A stretch of 64,000 nucleotides of DNA, from contig JAFLCB010000007.1 in the NCBI GenBank assembly GCA_017302795.1, positions 62,001-126,000 on the forward strand, in the 5' to 3' direction. Shown piece by piece: positions 6,281 to 12,729 of this stretch. The first letter of the stretch is position 1. Each line of letters opens with the position of its first letter. Origin of the DNA: Deltaproteobacteria bacterium. Lineage in GTDB: Bacteria; Bdellovibrionota; Bdellovibrionia; Bdellovibrionales; JAMPXM01. A program made the position numbers and the translations under genes. Under the pieces are notes generated by a model that saw only the letters and a program-made list of their open reading frames with translations, made no database searches and was not told the DNA's origin.

Positions 6281-7135
6281 GTGATCGAGAGTTCAGCTTT
6301 ATCAACGTCCTATTCGACCGATTGGGTTTCCGACATTGAAGGCGTATGGATGAAAGCGTTGCAGGAACTAAGTGGGAAAGAAAATCTTCGCTATTTGGAA
6401 ATTGGCGTCTTTGAGGGGAGGTCAGCCATTTGGTTTTTTCGGAATGTGCTGACGCACCCGACCTCCACAATGGTTGGAGTGGATGTCTTTGCCCATGGAA
6501 CCTGGGATCGATGCGTTGCGAATTTGACAAACGAAGGCGTTCTTGCGCGCACTCAACTGATATCGGGGCGGTCTCAAACAGTCCTAAAGCAAATGCCAGA
6601 CGCGGAGTTCGACATCGTGTACGTGGACGGTGACCATCGTTGCCGTCATGTCTATCAGGACATTTCACTTTCCTGGGATGTTCTAAAAGTCGGTGGCTTT
6701 ATGATTTTGGATGATTACAAGCTGCGTGAACAAGTCTTCCCGTTGGACTGCCGCCCGCAAGCTGCCATCGACAGCTTTTTGACATGTTTCTTTAGCGAAA
6801 TTGATGTCTATCACTTTTGTAATCGGCAATTGATCATCAAAAAAAAGGCGGTTCCGCCTTACGATTTTTTTGTCACTCAATTCGGTAATTACCAAGTTGA
6901 GTGGGGCCAGACCGCTCAAACGTTAACGGTGAAAAATGTTGTCACTTCAGCGATTGTAGACTTAAGCCAACTCGAGCAAGAGACTTTGAAGACAGTTCTA
7001 CTTTCAAAATCACTCGACTGCTACTATCCCGATACTTCGATCGTCGCGCCAGATGCGCTCAAATCACTTGAAGCGAAACTAAACCATAAACTTGGAAAAG
7101 AAATATTGGTTCCATCGGGTTTACAGTCAATCTAG
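6281..7135 (+). CDS. Class I SAM-dependent methyltransferase (Methyltransf_24 type)
   Basis: Rossmann-fold methyltransferase. The SAM-binding motif is YLEIGVFEGRSAIWFF; the strand-4 acid region reads DIVYVDGDHRCRHVYQD and motif VI is LKVGGFMILDDY. Substrate is not predictable; this class often acts on sugars or secondary metabolites. I chose GTG 6281 because GAGGAG lies at 6271-6276; an in-frame ATG at 6254 has no visible ribosome site. It lies 32 bases downstream of oppC in the same direction and overlaps the convergent gene at 7127 by 9 bases. Confidence 0.8.
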   Translation: MIESSALSTSYSTDWVSDIEGVWMKALQELSGKENLRYLEIGVFEGRSAIWFFRNVLTHPTSTMVGVDVFAHGTWDRCVANLTNEGVLARTQLISGRSQTVLKQMPDAEFDIVYVDGDHRCRHVYQDISLSWDVLKVGGFMILDDYKLREQVFPLDCRPQAAIDSFLTCFFSEIDVYHFCNRQLIIKKKAVPPYDFFVTQFGNYQVEWGQTAQTLTVKNVVTSAIVDLSQLEQETLKTVLLSKSLDCYYPDTSIVAPDALKSLEAKLNHKLGKEILVPSGLQSI

Positions 7136-8290
7136 CGATTCGAGGATTTCCGTTTCGCCTCGTTCAACTTCTCGATCAACTTCCTTCGATTCGTTTTTTC
7201 GAATTTTCGAAAGCTTTCCTTTGTTCATCGGAAGCCTTGGGTCGTGTCGGGATTCTAGCCACTCGACGAAATCTTTAATGGTTCGAAGCCCTTTCACCGT
7301 TTCAAGGTCTTTCGCGGTCATACCCGCAAAGAGACTTGGAATTTTCACCTCTACGACAGTCTGATCTTTTAAGTACGATTCAAACTGCTTTCCGTCTTGC
7401 AATCGGACCAGGCGAATTCGGTCGTCCATAGTGAATTGAATTTCGATCGGTACTGCTTGGTCCACAACGAAAAGCTTCACTGCGAAACTACGTCGACGAT
7501 ACATCGTCTTAGCGAAAAGCCCGGTGCGTTTTCGCGGGCTTGTATAAACCGAGTCGAAAAACTGTACCATAAGGTCGAATTTTTCTTGTGTCATCAATGG
7601 CTTGCCGCCTGGAGAACTAGGCACAAGGTTCAACGACGCCAGACGTGCGACGATTTGGTCGCGATAGGTAAGGTACTGATCGTCGACTAAGAATTTCTGG
7701 TCTGTTTTGAATCCTAGTGCTCGGACTTTTATGACCTTCTTGTCCTGGTTAGGATGTTGGATTTTAACTTCAATCCAAACTTTATCAGGAATTTGCGAAG
7801 TGTTTTTCACTCTCTTGAGATCTAAATCCGCAGTATCAGTCGTCAGGTACTCCCGGAAGCGGATTTTGACTCGTCGTTCATCACCTTCATAGTTGCGATA
7901 ACGCATTTTCGCGACGTAGTCCGTCGACGTGACGTTCTCGGTCCCAGCTGGGGCAATGTCTCTTGACTTCATTGCACGGCCAAAAACCTCGTTCATTTGG
8001 GCAACGCGAAAATCGACGAGGCTTGTTTGTACGGTGAATTTTGATTCTTCACGATCCGCAAACGGCCCACCCTCTCGCATCGCCACTTCGACTAAGCGAA
8101 GCGTCGAAAGGCTCATCCGGTCCATCGGTTTTGGTGTAAAAAACGCGCCTTCACACTGGGCGGCAAGACCGGCCACAGCATGCTGGGGACAGAGGACGAG
8201 AAGTGTGGCGCAAAACAGCCAGGTTCCAAGAAGCGCAATCGCCTCTCGGAACAAACTGCTTTGGTTCTTCGGTAACTTTCGTCCTGGCAT
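7127..8290 (-). CDS. Exported VTC-domain-like protein
   Basis: An N-terminal hydrophobic segment (residues about 15-42, ending AVAG) predicts export or anchoring. The rest resembles the VTC/triphosphate-tunnel fold: alternating basic and acidic strand signatures (VKIRFREY, KVWIEVKIQ, KVIKVRALG, MYRRRSFAVK, IEIQFTMDDRIR, VVEVKIPS), like the tunnel of VTC polyphosphate polymerases. The fold assignment is my pattern reading and is moderate; enzymatic activity is unproven. It is the last gene of a three-gene minus-strand cluster with a DUF2252-like protein (25 bases upstream) and a membrane protein. The C-terminal tail is highly charged and probably disordered. Confidence 0.6.
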   Translation of the reverse strand: MPGRKLPKNQSSLFREAIALLGTWLFCATLLVLCPQHAVAGLAAQCEGAFFTPKPMDRMSLSTLRLVEVAMREGGPFADREESKFTVQTSLVDFRVAQMNEVFGRAMKSRDIAPAGTENVTSTDYVAKMRYRNYEGDERRVKIRFREYLTTDTADLDLKRVKNTSQIPDKVWIEVKIQHPNQDKKVIKVRALGFKTDQKFLVDDQYLTYRDQIVARLASLNLVPSSPGGKPLMTQEKFDLMVQFFDSVYTSPRKRTGLFAKTMYRRRSFAVKLFVVDQAVPIEIQFTMDDRIRLVRLQDGKQFESYLKDQTVVEVKIPSLFAGMTAKDLETVKGLRTIKDFVEWLESRHDPRLPMNKGKLSKIRKNESKEVDREVERGETEILESLD

Positions 8291-8315
8291 GTGATTGGCG
8301 GTTTCCTGTTGGCTG

Positions 8316-9491
8316 CTAGTTTGTGGCTGAGCTTGTAAAAGCTTTGGAAATCGCTATTGATTCTGCGATTAAAAAATCCATTTGAGATAGCACAGTCTCC
8401 CGATAACCGACCGTGGCGTTTTCGCGATGAAATTTTCCTAGGAACCAGGCCAGATACTCGCCGTGCGTTTGAACGAGCGCCGGTGACGCGCTTTCCACAC
8501 CAATATCTTTATAAAGTCCCGGCGACTTCGATCGCGCGAGGAAATGCTGATTGTTAATGTAGATCACCGCTTGGCGACCGAGAAACGATTGCTCGATTGG
8601 AAGATCAAGAAAGCGCGCATCATACTCGACAAACGCTTCAAGATCGGATTCTAAATTTTGTTTAAGGGAGTCGCCGGCAGCTGTGCAGGAAAGCTCTTTG
8701 TATTCGATGATCCCTTCGACTCCAATGGGCTGAAGTTTTCCGTCATTACCTACGACTTGATTTTTTCCGTAAAACAAATACCGAGTCATTCCTGCTGAAG
8801 AGCCCTTCGAGTTTTGATCGGTCCAGGCCTCAACTTCGGAAAGATTCTGGATCACTTTCATGTTCCGCAATGCGGCTAACATATCCTGTTCTTCTTTCGA
8901 GATTTTAGTCATCGCAAGTTGGACACCTTTAATTCGCTGCTTTGAAACGTACTTTCGCTCTGCTTTTTTGTATTCATCTGGCGTCATTCGAAGCAGCGCT
9001 TCAAGTTCCGCTGGGATCGCGGCAGGCTTGCCATTTAAACCATCCGAATACTTAGCAATGATCCTTTTCAGATCGAGACCCTGTTTTTTCAACGACTGAA
9101 GATAGCTAATGTATTTAAGCAGATCCCCAAGAAGATAGTTGTGACCGGCTTCATCGAGATCATTAAAAGTTAATTGAATGGGATTTGTTTTCGAGCGGGT
9201 ATTTAGAAATACGTCGACGTTTTCCAAGTGAGGATCACCAACGACATAGCCTTTCGCTTGAAGTTCTGCCGGATAGCCCTTGATCTTTGATTCTGCCGTT
9301 CGCCAGTACTCGGAAACAAAAGTTTTGATTTTCGATTTCTTCTTTTTTACTTTTCCAAGTTCTTGGGGCGAGTTGCACTCAAGATCGGGGACGCGGGCGA
9401 TTGCTAGGCCCCCGACAAAAAACTCTGCGATCACCAATGTGGTGATTGCCAACTTGATCGAATTTGAGAGCAGACTTTTTAGGGATTTCAT
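8316..9491 (-). CDS. Exported DUF2252 (kinase-like) protein
   Basis: DUF2252 proteins have a protein-kinase/aminoglycoside-phosphotransferase-like active site. Here the catalytic-loop signature is GDPHLENVDVF and the metal-binding segment is TFNDLDEAG, followed by GDLLKYISYLQS, all in the first 150 residues. The N terminus has a signal-peptide-like stretch (LAITTLVIAEFFVGGLAIA), unexpected for an ATP-dependent enzyme because the periplasm lacks ATP. The ATG shares 4 bases (ATGA) with the upstream membrane-protein gene, so the two are coupled. Whether it phosphorylates anything, or uses another donor, is unknown. Confidence 0.75.
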   Translation of the reverse strand: MKSLKSLLSNSIKLAITTLVIAEFFVGGLAIARVPDLECNSPQELGKVKKKKSKIKTFVSEYWRTAESKIKGYPAELQAKGYVVGDPHLENVDVFLNTRSKTNPIQLTFNDLDEAGHNYLLGDLLKYISYLQSLKKQGLDLKRIIAKYSDGLNGKPAAIPAELEALLRMTPDEYKKAERKYVSKQRIKGVQLAMTKISKEEQDMLAALRNMKVIQNLSEVEAWTDQNSKGSSAGMTRYLFYGKNQVVGNDGKLQPIGVEGIIEYKELSCTAAGDSLKQNLESDLEAFVEYDARFLDLPIEQSFLGRQAVIYINNQHFLARSKSPGLYKDIGVESASPALVQTHGEYLAWFLGKFHRENATVGYRETVLSQMDFLIAESIAISKAFTSSATN

Positions 9492-10663
9492 TGCTTTAAC
9501 TCCGAACGGCTAAAGACCAAAAAGTCTCCGCGGCTTTCGACAAACTTAATAAGGGGCTGATATCTTGCGGGATCAACTTCCACTGCTGTGATGTCGACGC
9601 GGTTAGTGCCGTTAAATCTCGACATATAAAGCAACGTTACATTTTTTCCTTGGTCCTTGTCGAAAGTGTGCTGAATCCAAACCGACTGAGTCTTTGTAAC
9701 GTCAAACCGAGCGCTTGAATCCAGATTCAATCCCTGCTTTTTGGTCAGCTCGCGGGATTTTGCGCCGGTTGGATCTATCACATGCAGAACTTCATCTCGC
9801 AGAGTTGAAATTTGGAATCGAATTGGCTCTGGAACGCCGCTAGCGGCTGCGAACTCGTTCAAGGCTTTTTCGGTTTCAAATGGATCTGGGTTCGCCCACA
9901 TTTCGCGAACCGAGGCTACGATTCCATCGGGGAGAATCATATAGCCAACAACAAGTATGATGGGTGCCGAGACCAAGGCAACCCACCGTTTGAAGATCCC
10001 TTTCACATGATACTCAATCATTTTCGCTTTTACGTAACGGTGAAGCATCATCGCGCGAAGTTTAAGGTAGCCGTTGGACTCGGCAATTTTCCGCATTTTA
10101 TTTTTTTCAATTAGGTTCAGTTGGAATTTCGCACTCTCCACTTTGATCAGCGCGTCCATGTTGATTGTCGCGGGAATTGCCGTCTGAATATCGTATTTCG
10201 CCAACTCAGGAAAAGCGGTCAGATCGAGGAAAACGCGGTTGTTGATTTTGCCTTCAACGGTCAACGGATTATTTGAAATCCCGATGGCTTTACCGAATGG
10301 TGGAATCAGTTTTAGGCCTGATAAATTGAACTGTGGGTTAACTCGATAGTCTCCAGTGTAAGTCGCCTCGACGGAATACTTTCCAACTAGGGGGAACCCT
10401 AAAGTGAAGGATCCTGTGTCGGTCGGACCGCCGCGGTCGAAATCTTTTACAGAAAAAGTCTTTTGTCGGTTTGCACCGATCATGGCGATGAACTCTAGCA
10501 GTGCGGATTTAGGATCGCTGCTAAGTTCGCGCTCCTTAAAGCGAAGCTGTCCTCCGGGTTGTTGTTCAACGGGAAGAGTTTTCTCCAAATCGGAGAGTTC
10601 TTTGGGAGCAAGCGAAATTCGATCGAGGAGAGTTTTATTACTCGTCACTGTTGAAACAAACAT
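9488..10663 (-). CDS. Unrecognised membrane protein, first gene of the VTC/DUF2252 cluster
   Basis: I do not recognise a family. It has 391 residues, no clear signal peptide, and one strong membrane segment at about residues 228-250 (WVALVSAPIILVVGYMI). The N-terminal part contains strand-rich sequence (GKYSVEATYTGDYRVNP, NRVFLDLTAFPEL); the C-terminal part is soluble and ends in a strand-rich domain (SVWIQHTF, VTLLYMSRF). It overlaps the DUF2252 gene by 4 bases, which argues for a shared task. The frame is closed by a stop just upstream, so the ATG at 10663 is the only standard start. Confidence 0.7.
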   Translation of the reverse strand: MFVSTVTSNKTLLDRISLAPKELSDLEKTLPVEQQPGGQLRFKERELSSDPKSALLEFIAMIGANRQKTFSVKDFDRGGPTDTGSFTLGFPLVGKYSVEATYTGDYRVNPQFNLSGLKLIPPFGKAIGISNNPLTVEGKINNRVFLDLTAFPELAKYDIQTAIPATINMDALIKVESAKFQLNLIEKNKMRKIAESNGYLKLRAMMLHRYVKAKMIEYHVKGIFKRWVALVSAPIILVVGYMILPDGIVASVREMWANPDPFETEKALNEFAAASGVPEPIRFQISTLRDEVLHVIDPTGAKSRELTKKQGLNLDSSARFDVTKTQSVWIQHTFDKDQGKNVTLLYMSRFNGTNRVDITAVEVDPARYQPLIKFVESRGDFLVFSRSELKQ

Positions 10664-10912
10664 GAGTTCGCAATCGTTGGCCCTTGCAAATGAAGGTGAC
10701 TAAAATTGGCCCAAGAGCCCTATAGCTAAAAAGATAAGGGCTAAAGAAAGACCGCGAATCTGACATATTACGGTGATCTGTTTCATAGATCTGAAGACTC
10801 ATCGCAAGGTCCGGACCAGGACATCGCCTACAGAAACACAAGCTAAGTATTTAAACGCATCACTCGCGAGTGCAAAAAACACTCGACAGTGGGCCCAAAT
10901 TTGACCGCAAGC

Positions 10913-11632
10913 CTAGTCGGCAAACCAACAATGAGGACGTTTCGGAGGCTGTGTGCCAAGTGCCGATTCGGCACCTATTCTGAACGTGTCTAGTCGACAT
11001 TGAAGGGAGGGATAAGCAAGTGTCAGGGTATTCTCGGGCGTTTCCGGAGCGCTTACATTTAGTTCCGGCAGAGGAAGGGTTTTATCAAAATGAAACTGGG
11101 CAAAGAGGGCGAACTCAAGCCCCGCTTTGACGATTCGATCGCGGGTCTCAACCGGATTCAAGCCGCGTCCGCGGTAAAGACTCGGCAGGCAAACAGTAGC
11201 TGCCCACCAATCACTTTGTCCTTCAGTGGATGACCAGTGCTCTTCACCTGGTTCGTTGAAGCTAGGAAAGATCTGCCGAGGCGTTCCTCCAAGCAGGTGG
11301 CCAAACTCATGGCAGAGAATCGCTTCGAGCGCGGGGATTGTCATTTTATCAGCGCGAACAAGACCGCCCCAAAGCATGATCTGGAAGATCTTGTCATCAG
11401 TAAGGACAGAGCCAGCGCCAAGCCACGGTTTGTTCCAATGGAAATCCCATTGAAATCCAGACGAAGCGCTTTGAGTCTTGTCGCGCAGGAGAGTTTCGAT
11501 TTCGCTCATTAAAAGAACGGTTTCCAAAACTGTGATTCCCGATTTCGACTGATCTTCAGGGTACGAGATGACCTCCGAGCGGGCCACGCTCAATCCGCTA
11601 AACAAAATGAGGAGAGCAATAAGGAGTTTCAG
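10913..11632 (-). CDS. Secreted zinc metallopeptidase (HExxH), probable CTG start
   Basis: The active-site helix reads AILCHEFGHLLGG, giving two zinc His and the catalytic Glu. EGQSDWWAATVCLPS follows about 30 residues later and supplies acidic residues that could complete the site. The first ordinary start in frame is TTG 11605, in the middle of a hydrophobic run. Starting instead at CTG 11632 gives MKLLIALLILFSGLSVARS, a textbook signal peptide, and this CTG overlaps the TGA of the upstream DUF457 gene as CTGA. I therefore propose the CTG. Substrate is unknown; it probably acts in the periplasm or outside the cell. Confidence 0.75.
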   Translation of the reverse strand: MKLLIALLILFSGLSVARSEVISYPEDQSKSGITVLETVLLMSEIETLLRDKTQSASSGFQWDFHWNKPWLGAGSVLTDDKIFQIMLWGGLVRADKMTIPALEAILCHEFGHLLGGTPRQIFPSFNEPGEEHWSSTEGQSDWWAATVCLPSLYRGRGLNPVETRDRIVKAGLEFALFAQFHFDKTLPLPELNVSAPETPENTLTLAYPSLQCRLDTFRIGAESALGTQPPKRPHCWFAD

Positions 11633-12729
11633 TCTAAATCTCGACCTAAAAGCATTTTTCCAAACACCTTAAATTTTCTATCCGTCACATCGCGAAACGT
11701 AACGTACTCGACATGTGCGTCTGAGTTTTCGTGATCGAATCGGATTCCCCACAACGGATCGGTTTCCTGCGGCAAAAGCGAATATCGAATATCGCCGACG
11801 ACCATTCGTCCTTCTTCCTCGTGCTGGGGCACTCTTGCCAGCCAATCGTCAGAGAACCACGCAAAGCGTTTCAAATCCGCTTCCAGCGTCGACTCTGGTT
11901 GGGATTCGGATTTCGATTTTGATTTCGAAAATGTTCCAATGTCAAACTTCTCGAGCCCGTCAGCTGCGCTCGATTCGTAAACACGGGTCGAAAAGGGTCC
12001 GACAAAAATCGCATCGGAAAAATAACGACCATTGTATTCATAAATCGATTTCCAAAGGAAGAGTTGAAAAATGGTGGGTTTAACTTCCCGGCGATCAGCC
12101 GCGTGACCACGGTGTTTTAGCAATCCAGCCTGCACATGATCCGCTCGTTCTCGTTGAAAAACACCGAATACCAAGTAGGCAATGCCGATCGCCAGCGCAA
12201 TTCTCGCGGGACGAACGCTTTTCCATCGGTAGGCTAGGACCACACCGACCAACCAAGTCAGCGATGGAACTGGGTCGATGATTCCAACATTATTCCAAGC
12301 CACACGAAGATTTGAAAAAGGCCAGAGCAGCTGCGTCCCGTATGATGTGCAAGCGTCTAGCAAACCGTGGCTGGCTAAACCAAGAGTGGAAAAGAAAATC
12401 CAATCAAAGAGCGAATACCCATTTCCAAATCGAGAGGTGGCTGTATTTCCGGATTTGGTTTCCGAGCGGCGAGACCAAGCGCCAAGTGTAAAGTAAAGAA
12501 ACGCTCCAACAAATGCGCCGCCAAAGGGAATGAAGAAAAGCGAATGGGTGAAGTGCCGGTGAAACTGGATAGCCAAAAGAGGATCTGAGGAAGATCGAAT
12601 AAGGACATCAAGATCGGGCGCCATGCCGCCGATGATGCCAGCAACCAAAGCTAAGGGCATTTTGGTTGCAGCTTTTGAATGCGACTGCGAAAAACTCGCA
12701 CCTATGACGGCCTGACTTAGAGGATCCAT
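11629..12729 (-). CDS. Membrane-bound metal-dependent hydrolase, YdjM/DUF457 family
   Basis: The N terminus is typical: MDPLSQAVIGASFSQ, GGMAPDLDVLIR and HRHFTHSLFFIPFGG, where the Asp and His cluster are the presumed metal ligands. Four to five membrane segments follow, then a soluble C-terminal part of about 150 residues that is longer than in many relatives, with a Ser/Glu/Lys-rich linker (SKSKSKSESQPES). YdjM relatives in E. coli are LexA-regulated membrane proteins of unclear substrate. It lies 3 bases after ychF on the same strand and is coupled to the downstream metallopeptidase. Confidence 0.85.
   Translation of the reverse strand: MDPLSQAVIGASFSQSHSKAATKMPLALVAGIIGGMAPDLDVLIRSSSDPLLAIQFHRHFTHSLFFIPFGGAFVGAFLYFTLGAWSRRSETKSGNTATSRFGNGYSLFDWIFFSTLGLASHGLLDACTSYGTQLLWPFSNLRVAWNNVGIIDPVPSLTWLVGVVLAYRWKSVRPARIALAIGIAYLVFGVFQRERADHVQAGLLKHRGHAADRREVKPTIFQLFLWKSIYEYNGRYFSDAIFVGPFSTRVYESSAADGLEKFDIGTFSKSKSKSESQPESTLEADLKRFAWFSDDWLARVPQHEEEGRMVVGDIRYSLLPQETDPLWGIRFDHENSDAHVEYVTFRDVTDRKFKVFGKMLLGRDLD

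Follow-up and report, generated by a model that had tools for sequence, protein, structure and literature searches.

How might a tunnel protein of VTC type and a kinase-like protein, both apparently exported, act together outside the cytoplasmic membrane? The question is raised by a cassette of three adjacent minus-strand genes in a 64,000-nucleotide stretch of DNA (the window; assembly GCA_017302795.1, contig JAFLCB010000007.1, positions 62,001 to 126,000) from a deltaproteobacterium related to Bdellovibrio. VTC-type enzymes are understood to be cytosolic and to use ATP, and ATP is thought to be scarce outside the cell membrane; to our knowledge, the phosphate donor of exported bacterial kinase-fold proteins is an open question. 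The cassette encodes a membrane-associated third partner (MEM), a DUF2252-like protein and a VTC-like triphosphate-tunnel protein (TTMx). The interpretation that we tentatively favour, at slightly less than even odds, is that it forms an extracytoplasmic (envelope) phosphoryl-transfer module, perhaps based on polyphosphate, and a variant of the DUF4956-VTC-CotH cassette. The three genes are:

9488-10663, minus strand: MEM, 391 residues from the ATG at 10663, with one hydrophobic segment.
8316-9491, minus strand: DUF2252-like kinase-clan protein, predicted exported, 391 residues (sequence motifs, Pfam, hydropathy).
7127-8290, minus strand: TTMx, VTC-like triphosphate-tunnel protein, predicted exported, 387 residues (profile, AlphaFold model, alignment).

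The layout reported in a preliminary description of this DNA is correct: the MEM and DUF2252-like genes overlap by 4 bases (9488-9491), and the DUF2252-like gene is separated from the TTMx gene by a gap of 25 bases; at its 3' end the TTMx gene overlaps a convergent methyltransferase gene by 9 bases. All three genes occur in the same order in a congeneric genome (G002), with protein identities of 57-64%, and comparison with that genome indicates purifying selection on each (nonsynonymous differences per site, pN, 0.25-0.28; synonymous, pS, 0.75-0.85 and saturated). Because order and identity are kept and pN is low against a saturated pS, these are more than chance open reading frames (ORFs). 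Nothing relevant was found in NCBIfam, among PADLOC defence models or among RNA families, and promoter and terminator scans were not clearly above chance.

TTMx begins with a hydrophobic, signal-peptide-like leader according to both a heuristic scan and hydropathy, as do most of its relatives. It has no hit to Pfam VTC (PF09359; gathering cut-off 23 bits), and relatives fall below that cut-off at 18.9, 22.0 and 22.4 bits, the last two, only slightly short of it, being more distant exported relatives. Kinship with VTC nevertheless emerges from profiles: the alignment of eight TTMx proteins of the order, that of the window included, which share invariant RxExK, KxRxRxY, ExK, KxR, YxR, QxTxD and ExK motifs, was compared by hhalign with 13 aligned canonical VTCs of the same order, and the match has a probability of 95.5 (E 1.5e-8), against less than 1% for each of two unrelated control alignments. 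Since the profile search of the window protein against PDB sequences yielded a chance match only, a structural route was needed. The AlphaFold model (predicted local distance difference test, pLDDT, 80; predicted template modelling score, pTM, 0.72) was compared with the PDB using Foldseek, and the top five matches are all VTC (E 3e-8 to 6e-7), followed by ygiF and TTM3. Judged as a member of PF09359, TTMx thus has in its predicted model a tunnel fold nearest to VTC structures, and differs from the cytoplasmic catalytic domain of that family in carrying its leader. When TTMx is aligned with yeast Vtc4, all aligned tunnel residues are kept except for an arginine that is replaced by Gln 285; placement of the equivalent of catalytic K458 is uncertain. 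The tunnel features, all on the minus strand, are:

8039-8053, minus strand: RxExK of the first tunnel strand (R80, E82, K84), matching VTC RxExK and Vtc4 RxxxK.
7916-7963, minus strand: RD-x7-N-x-T-x-T-x-Y, a motif that marks the exported clade and is missing in the 13 canonical VTCs.
7847-7867, minus strand: KxRxRxY (R144 and R146 correspond to Vtc4 R264 and R266; alignment).
7763-7771, minus strand: ExK (E174, K176), of VTC type and not polyphosphatase type (alignment; criterion of PMC4641920).
7493-7501, minus strand: YxR (R266 corresponds to the arginine of Vtc4 YNR; alignment).
7424-7438, minus strand: QxTxD with Gln 285, an arginine in all canonical VTCs (alignment).
7343-7351, minus strand: ExK (E314, K316; E314 corresponds to the metal-binding E426 of Vtc4; alignment).

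Glutamine replaces arginine in the RxTxD strand of all 18 exported proteins examined, whereas arginine is present in 13 of 13 canonical VTCs. The RD...[ND]xTxTxY motif has the same distribution, being found in 18/18 exported proteins (with RN for RD in one and F for N/D in two) and in none of the 13 canonical ones. The replaced Vtc4 arginine is presumably R373; no literature on it was found. Tripolyphosphatases of the triphosphate-tunnel (TTM) group are defined by an acidic patch (Martinez et al., PMC4641920). This four-glutamate patch is incomplete in TTMx, where positions 80, 176 and 316 are Arg, Lys and Lys and E82 alone is acidic, the pairing of K176 with Glu-90 of AtTTM3 being our own reading; by this criterion the predicted tunnel is of polymerase type and not of tripolyphosphatase type. 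The model and alignments together indicate a genuine, non-canonical triphosphate-tunnel protein in a predicted exported clade of its own. The tunnel fold proposed in the preliminary description is therefore borne out, whereas its plain VTC label needs qualifying because of the distinct motif and the Arg-to-Gln change, and we use the term exported VTC-like TTM clade rather than VTC polymerase.

The DUF2252-like protein also has a hydrophobic, signal-like leader, so that the N termini proposed for both enzyme-like proteins were found. Its match to Pfam DUF2252 (PF10009) is weak (E 0.026; 14.0 bits, below the gathering cut-off of 22.3), while the ortholog at the same position in a Pseudobdellovibrio locus (L031) passes with 28.9 bits; of 13 relatives, 12 match PF10009 at E <= 1 and 3 match APH. 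DUF2252 is a kinase-clan family with flipped N- and C-lobes (PMC9758233), and the window protein has its kinase motifs in that flipped order, including the two peptides already noticed:

9207-9239, minus strand: GDPHLENVDVF, catalytic-loop-like, with G85, D86 and H88 invariant in 13 relatives (alignment).
9144-9170, minus strand: TFNDLDEAG, DFG-like metal-binding motif, with D111 and G116 invariant in 13 (alignment).
8781-8804, minus strand: GSSAGMTR, glycine-rich-loop-like, following the catalytic-loop motif in keeping with flipped lobes (alignment; PMC9758233).
8697-8705, minus strand: EYK, invariant E263-x-K265, with a candidate nucleotide-binding lysine (alignment).

R237 is likewise invariant in all 13 aligned proteins. 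Because G85, D86, H88, D111, G116, R237, E263 and K265 are all invariant, the site looks intact. The protein is a divergent DUF2252 relative; the earlier proposal of a kinase-like site survives on sequence motifs alone.

The third partner has a single hydrophobic segment (residues about 222-253) besides its leader. Its family has no counterpart in Pfam or NCBIfam. Its AlphaFold model (pLDDT 73, pTM 0.52) is beta-rich at the N terminus and continues with a long helix and with beta structure in the C-terminal part; a fold search of the PDB with this model returned nothing significant (best E 0.026). MEM was described earlier as a membrane protein in a cluster ending at 10663; its reading frame extends further upstream, through a TAG codon to another ATG:

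10664-10786, minus strand: MEM leader in the same frame from the ATG at 10786, signal peptide MKQITVICQIRGLSLALIFLAIGLLGQF-stop-SPSFARANDCEL, cut by an in-frame TAG and uninterrupted in relatives.
10700-10702, minus strand: the in-frame TAG (sequence and profile search).

A profile search of 141 genomes of the order found an internal stop (one TAG) in the window copy of MEM only, and TAG is the ordinary stop codon of the adjacent DUF2252-like gene. The interruption is an error of sequencing or assembly, or else export was lost recently. Close to the cassette (window 10913-12729), two ORFs that are YdjM-like and metallopeptidase-like correspond to one 613-residue ORF in G002 (L014:13786-15627), which suggests a second disruption, a split or an error in the sequence.

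Gene order was surveyed in the same 141 genomes, and more distant Bdellovibrionota were also examined. The preliminary description had made its case depend on the three genes staying together in related genomes, and they do so in two lineages: MEM-DUF2252-TTMx is kept in 3/141 genomes, namely two of family f1 (one of them G002) and a Pseudobdellovibrio sp. of a different family (G097, L031:3621-6953). As DUF2252-like genes number 0-2 per genome, such recurrence is unlikely to arise by chance (rough estimate 2e-7). Scanning further genome contigs added three records only, all relatives already known. Beyond the triad, MEM and TTMx occur without DUF2252 in G101, and MEM accompanies a longer exported TTM family in G053, G091 and G098, whose kinship with TTMx is supported by an hhalign probability of 76 (E 2e-5). 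MEM-TTM adjacency comes with short overlaps, and in G130 and G131 TTMx and a MEM-like domain form one fused protein (probability 77, E 2e-5, based on two sequences only). MEM occurs with both DUF2252 and FAM20x, an undescribed predicted exported family with the kinase-like motifs QDRxGNxH and KDNDCG, in the window's own genome, G002 and G001, and with FAM20x in G058. Related bacteria swap the kinase part of the cassette. MEM is also found without a TTM or kinase-like neighbour (G045, G020, G093 and G082). A paralogous DUF2252-MEM-FAM20x triad with 4-base overlaps lies between murD and ftsW in a peptidoglycan cluster of the window's own genome (contig C3, L015:5275-9358), and a triad of this kind between the same two genes is present in G002 (L048).

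Throughout Bdellovibrionota, exported tunnel proteins are often, not always, found beside exported phosphotransferase-like proteins, whether DUF2252, FAM20x, CotH-like or PPDK_N. Exported proteins that are CotH-like by motif lie beside or near exported TTMx in distant Bdellovibrionota (G344, G350 and G199), and exported PPDK_N proteins (pyruvate phosphate dikinase ATP-binding) do so in G131 and G200; PPDK_N matches number 2-9 per genome. PPDK_N proteins adjoining exported VTC-like proteins were seen in two families (L120:5503-7857 and L122:6756-8321). Canonical VTCs of the same order also keep such company: DUF4956-VTC-CotH cassettes are present; by coordinate comparison FAM20x directly adjoins canonical VTC in 12 genomes of a Bdellovibrio-type genus (g20); and in G008 a DUF2252 lipoprotein gene overlaps canonical VTC. 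In G057 a Bdellovibrio-type operon (L168:4194-10220) comprises FAM20x, DUF4956, an HlyD-like protein, an exported protein and canonical VTC; polyphosphate may be made by this operon and carried through the envelope in one coupled process. FAM20x was rejected as a database-recognisable kinase, having no sequence match in Pfam, NCBIfam or the PDB, and it did not match the CotH-like set. At two loci (L051:864-1637 and L054:615-1334) FAM20x is adjoined by an exported protein with HCWNGWHASG, a tyrosine-phosphatase-like loop without the arginine. An exported all-helical family (HLX) with a DELHDVRKNLRD motif adjoins MEM in several Pseudobdellovibrio-group genomes (L050, L051, L052, L054 and L166); its likeness by eye to the CHAD polyphosphate-binding domain was rejected (hhalign probability 0.3, no Pfam support).

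A short cysteine-containing motif directly after the signal peptide is common to these non-homologous exported families (and is seen at L155:5150-6802), and the motif scan places it twice in the cassette:

10658-10672, minus strand: CELMF, C-x2-MF directly after the MEM signal peptide.
8141-8155, minus strand: CEGAF, C-x2-AF directly after the TTMx signal peptide.

In the form C-x2-[LFMAS]F it follows the signal peptide in 6/10 TTMx, 7/12 MEM and all four HLX proteins and in long TTMs too, and each of the three proteins of the G053 operon has a C-x2-LF-type motif. The background, in which signal peptides were called by a simple heuristic of our own, is 0 of 119 signal-bearing ORFs in 400 kb of the window's own genome and 2 of 131 in 400 kb of G020, where one match lies inside the signal peptide and the other is a further long exported TTM. 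We would guess that the motif is a shared anchoring or docking signal.

These observations can be joined in a conditional scheme. The predicted exported TTMx would most likely bind or process tri- or polyphosphate in the periplasm; the exported DUF2252-like kinase would use, or act with, that phosphate, thereby modifying an envelope molecule; and MEM, which is exported in relatives and has one hydrophobic segment, would probably hold the pair at the membrane. Of the extracytoplasmic phosphate or polyphosphate system proposed earlier, the phosphate-transfer part is favoured by the exported phosphotransferase-like partners, while polyphosphate itself, like direct contact of the three proteins, enters as a presumption. 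The location of the paralogous triad, with murD and ftsW on either side, hints weakly that the producer's own envelope is a more natural target than prey. Several points weigh against such a module. We know of no phosphate donor outside the cytoplasm; the invariant Arg-to-Gln change implies that TTMx may not polymerise, or may just bind; the FAM20x and CotH-like neighbours are kinase-like by motifs alone, without a Pfam match; and the MEM leader of the window genome contains a stop codon. Moreover, TTMx has no recognised partner in G081, G095 and G008 (in G127 it lies at a contig end), and since several TTMx genes stand alone no partner is obligatory.

If TTMx were instead a hydrolase, it would degrade polyphosphate or nucleoside triphosphates outside the cell, such as those released by lysed prey, to scavenge phosphate, and the kinase-like partner would salvage or sense the products. 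Export suits such a role, G350 has an exported metallophosphatase near TTMx, and most TTM proteins other than VTC are phosphatases (PMC8233210); the incomplete tripolyphosphatase patch described above (PMC4641920) speaks against this reading, which we consider unlikely. Recurrent kinase-like partners, too, are not expected for simple hydrolysis. Alternatively, both proteins might be pseudo-enzymes, with TTMx serving as a receptor or scaffold for polyphosphate or phosphoproteins while the kinase fold senses a ligand, the two jointly controlling an envelope process. Vtc2 and Vtc3 are examples of non-catalytic TTM domains, the Arg-to-Gln change is fixed in all exported members, and MEM, with its long helix, matches no known enzyme fold. 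However, there is no variation in the metal-binding Glu or in any other aligned tunnel residue, nor in G85, D86, H88, D111, E263 and K265 of the kinase; catalysis is therefore argued for, and the pseudo-enzyme explanation is rather doubtful.

The preliminary description had also suggested action on or inside another cell, for which no supporting evidence was found. Secretion of the pair into prey or a neighbouring cell, there to use that cell's ATP, would fit a lineage related to the predators Bdellovibrio and Pseudobdellovibrio and would remove the problem of missing periplasmic ATP; it is nonetheless quite improbable, given that no secretion system or effector signal was recognised among the neighbours scanned, that the signal peptide and hydrophobic segment of MEM relatives suit the producer's own envelope, and that the same is true of the paralogous triad located among the peptidoglycan genes. 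Least credible, and already disfavoured, is that unrelated envelope genes are neighbours by chance: the rarity of the triad and the separate occurrence of its components elsewhere would be expected on that basis, whereas the same order in two families despite so few DUF2252-like genes per genome, the MEM-TTM adjacency with its overlaps and fusions, and the shared C-x2-LF motif would not.

A bolder reading, which we regard as unlikely though worth stating, is that kinase-fold phosphotransferases of Bdellovibrionota work beyond the cytoplasmic membrane with polyphosphate as their donor, exported VTC-type tunnel proteins handling this polymer, so that periplasmic phosphorylation would need no ATP. 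The recurring pairs of exported VTC-type tunnel and kinase-like proteins make this idea of a non-ATP envelope donor testable, and the cassette is a hint that phosphate may be moved there, beyond the cell membrane, by a system so far undescribed.

Comparison with known systems places the cassette more closely. With VTC (PF09359, yeast Vtc4) TTMx shares the tunnel fold and keeps the aligned ring residues of RxExK, RxRxY, ExK, KxR, YxR, TxD and ExK; it differs in its signal peptide, its score below the Pfam cut-off, Gln for Arg in RxTxD and the extra RD...TxTxY, and no SPX or VTC1-type domain was seen in it. The CYTH-type TTM phosphatases (ygiF, AtTTM3) have the tunnel fold in common with TTMx, which is however without most of the tripolyphosphatase glutamate patch. 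Like DUF2252 (PF10009), the kinase-like partner has GDxHxxN and DLD first and the glycine-rich loop and ExK later, although it is predicted to be exported and falls below the Pfam cut-off. A further parallel is with DUF4956-VTC-CotH cassettes such as SIR_1592-1594 of Streptococcus intermedius, a comparable trio adjoining the Pel genes, where deletion of two of the three changes aggregation and Pel level (PMC12345266). Neither DUF4956 nor CotH beside canonical VTC was found among the window neighbours scanned, nor any canonical VTC in the window's own genome. Both cassettes combine a VTC-type protein with a membrane protein and with a kinase-fold protein that is exported; in the window, by contrast, the VTC-type protein is itself exported, MEM, for which no kinship to DUF4956 was detected, stands in its place, and CotH is replaced by DUF2252. 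The cassette is thus real and unusual, and is best filed as a new variant within the VTC-membrane protein-kinase cassette type.

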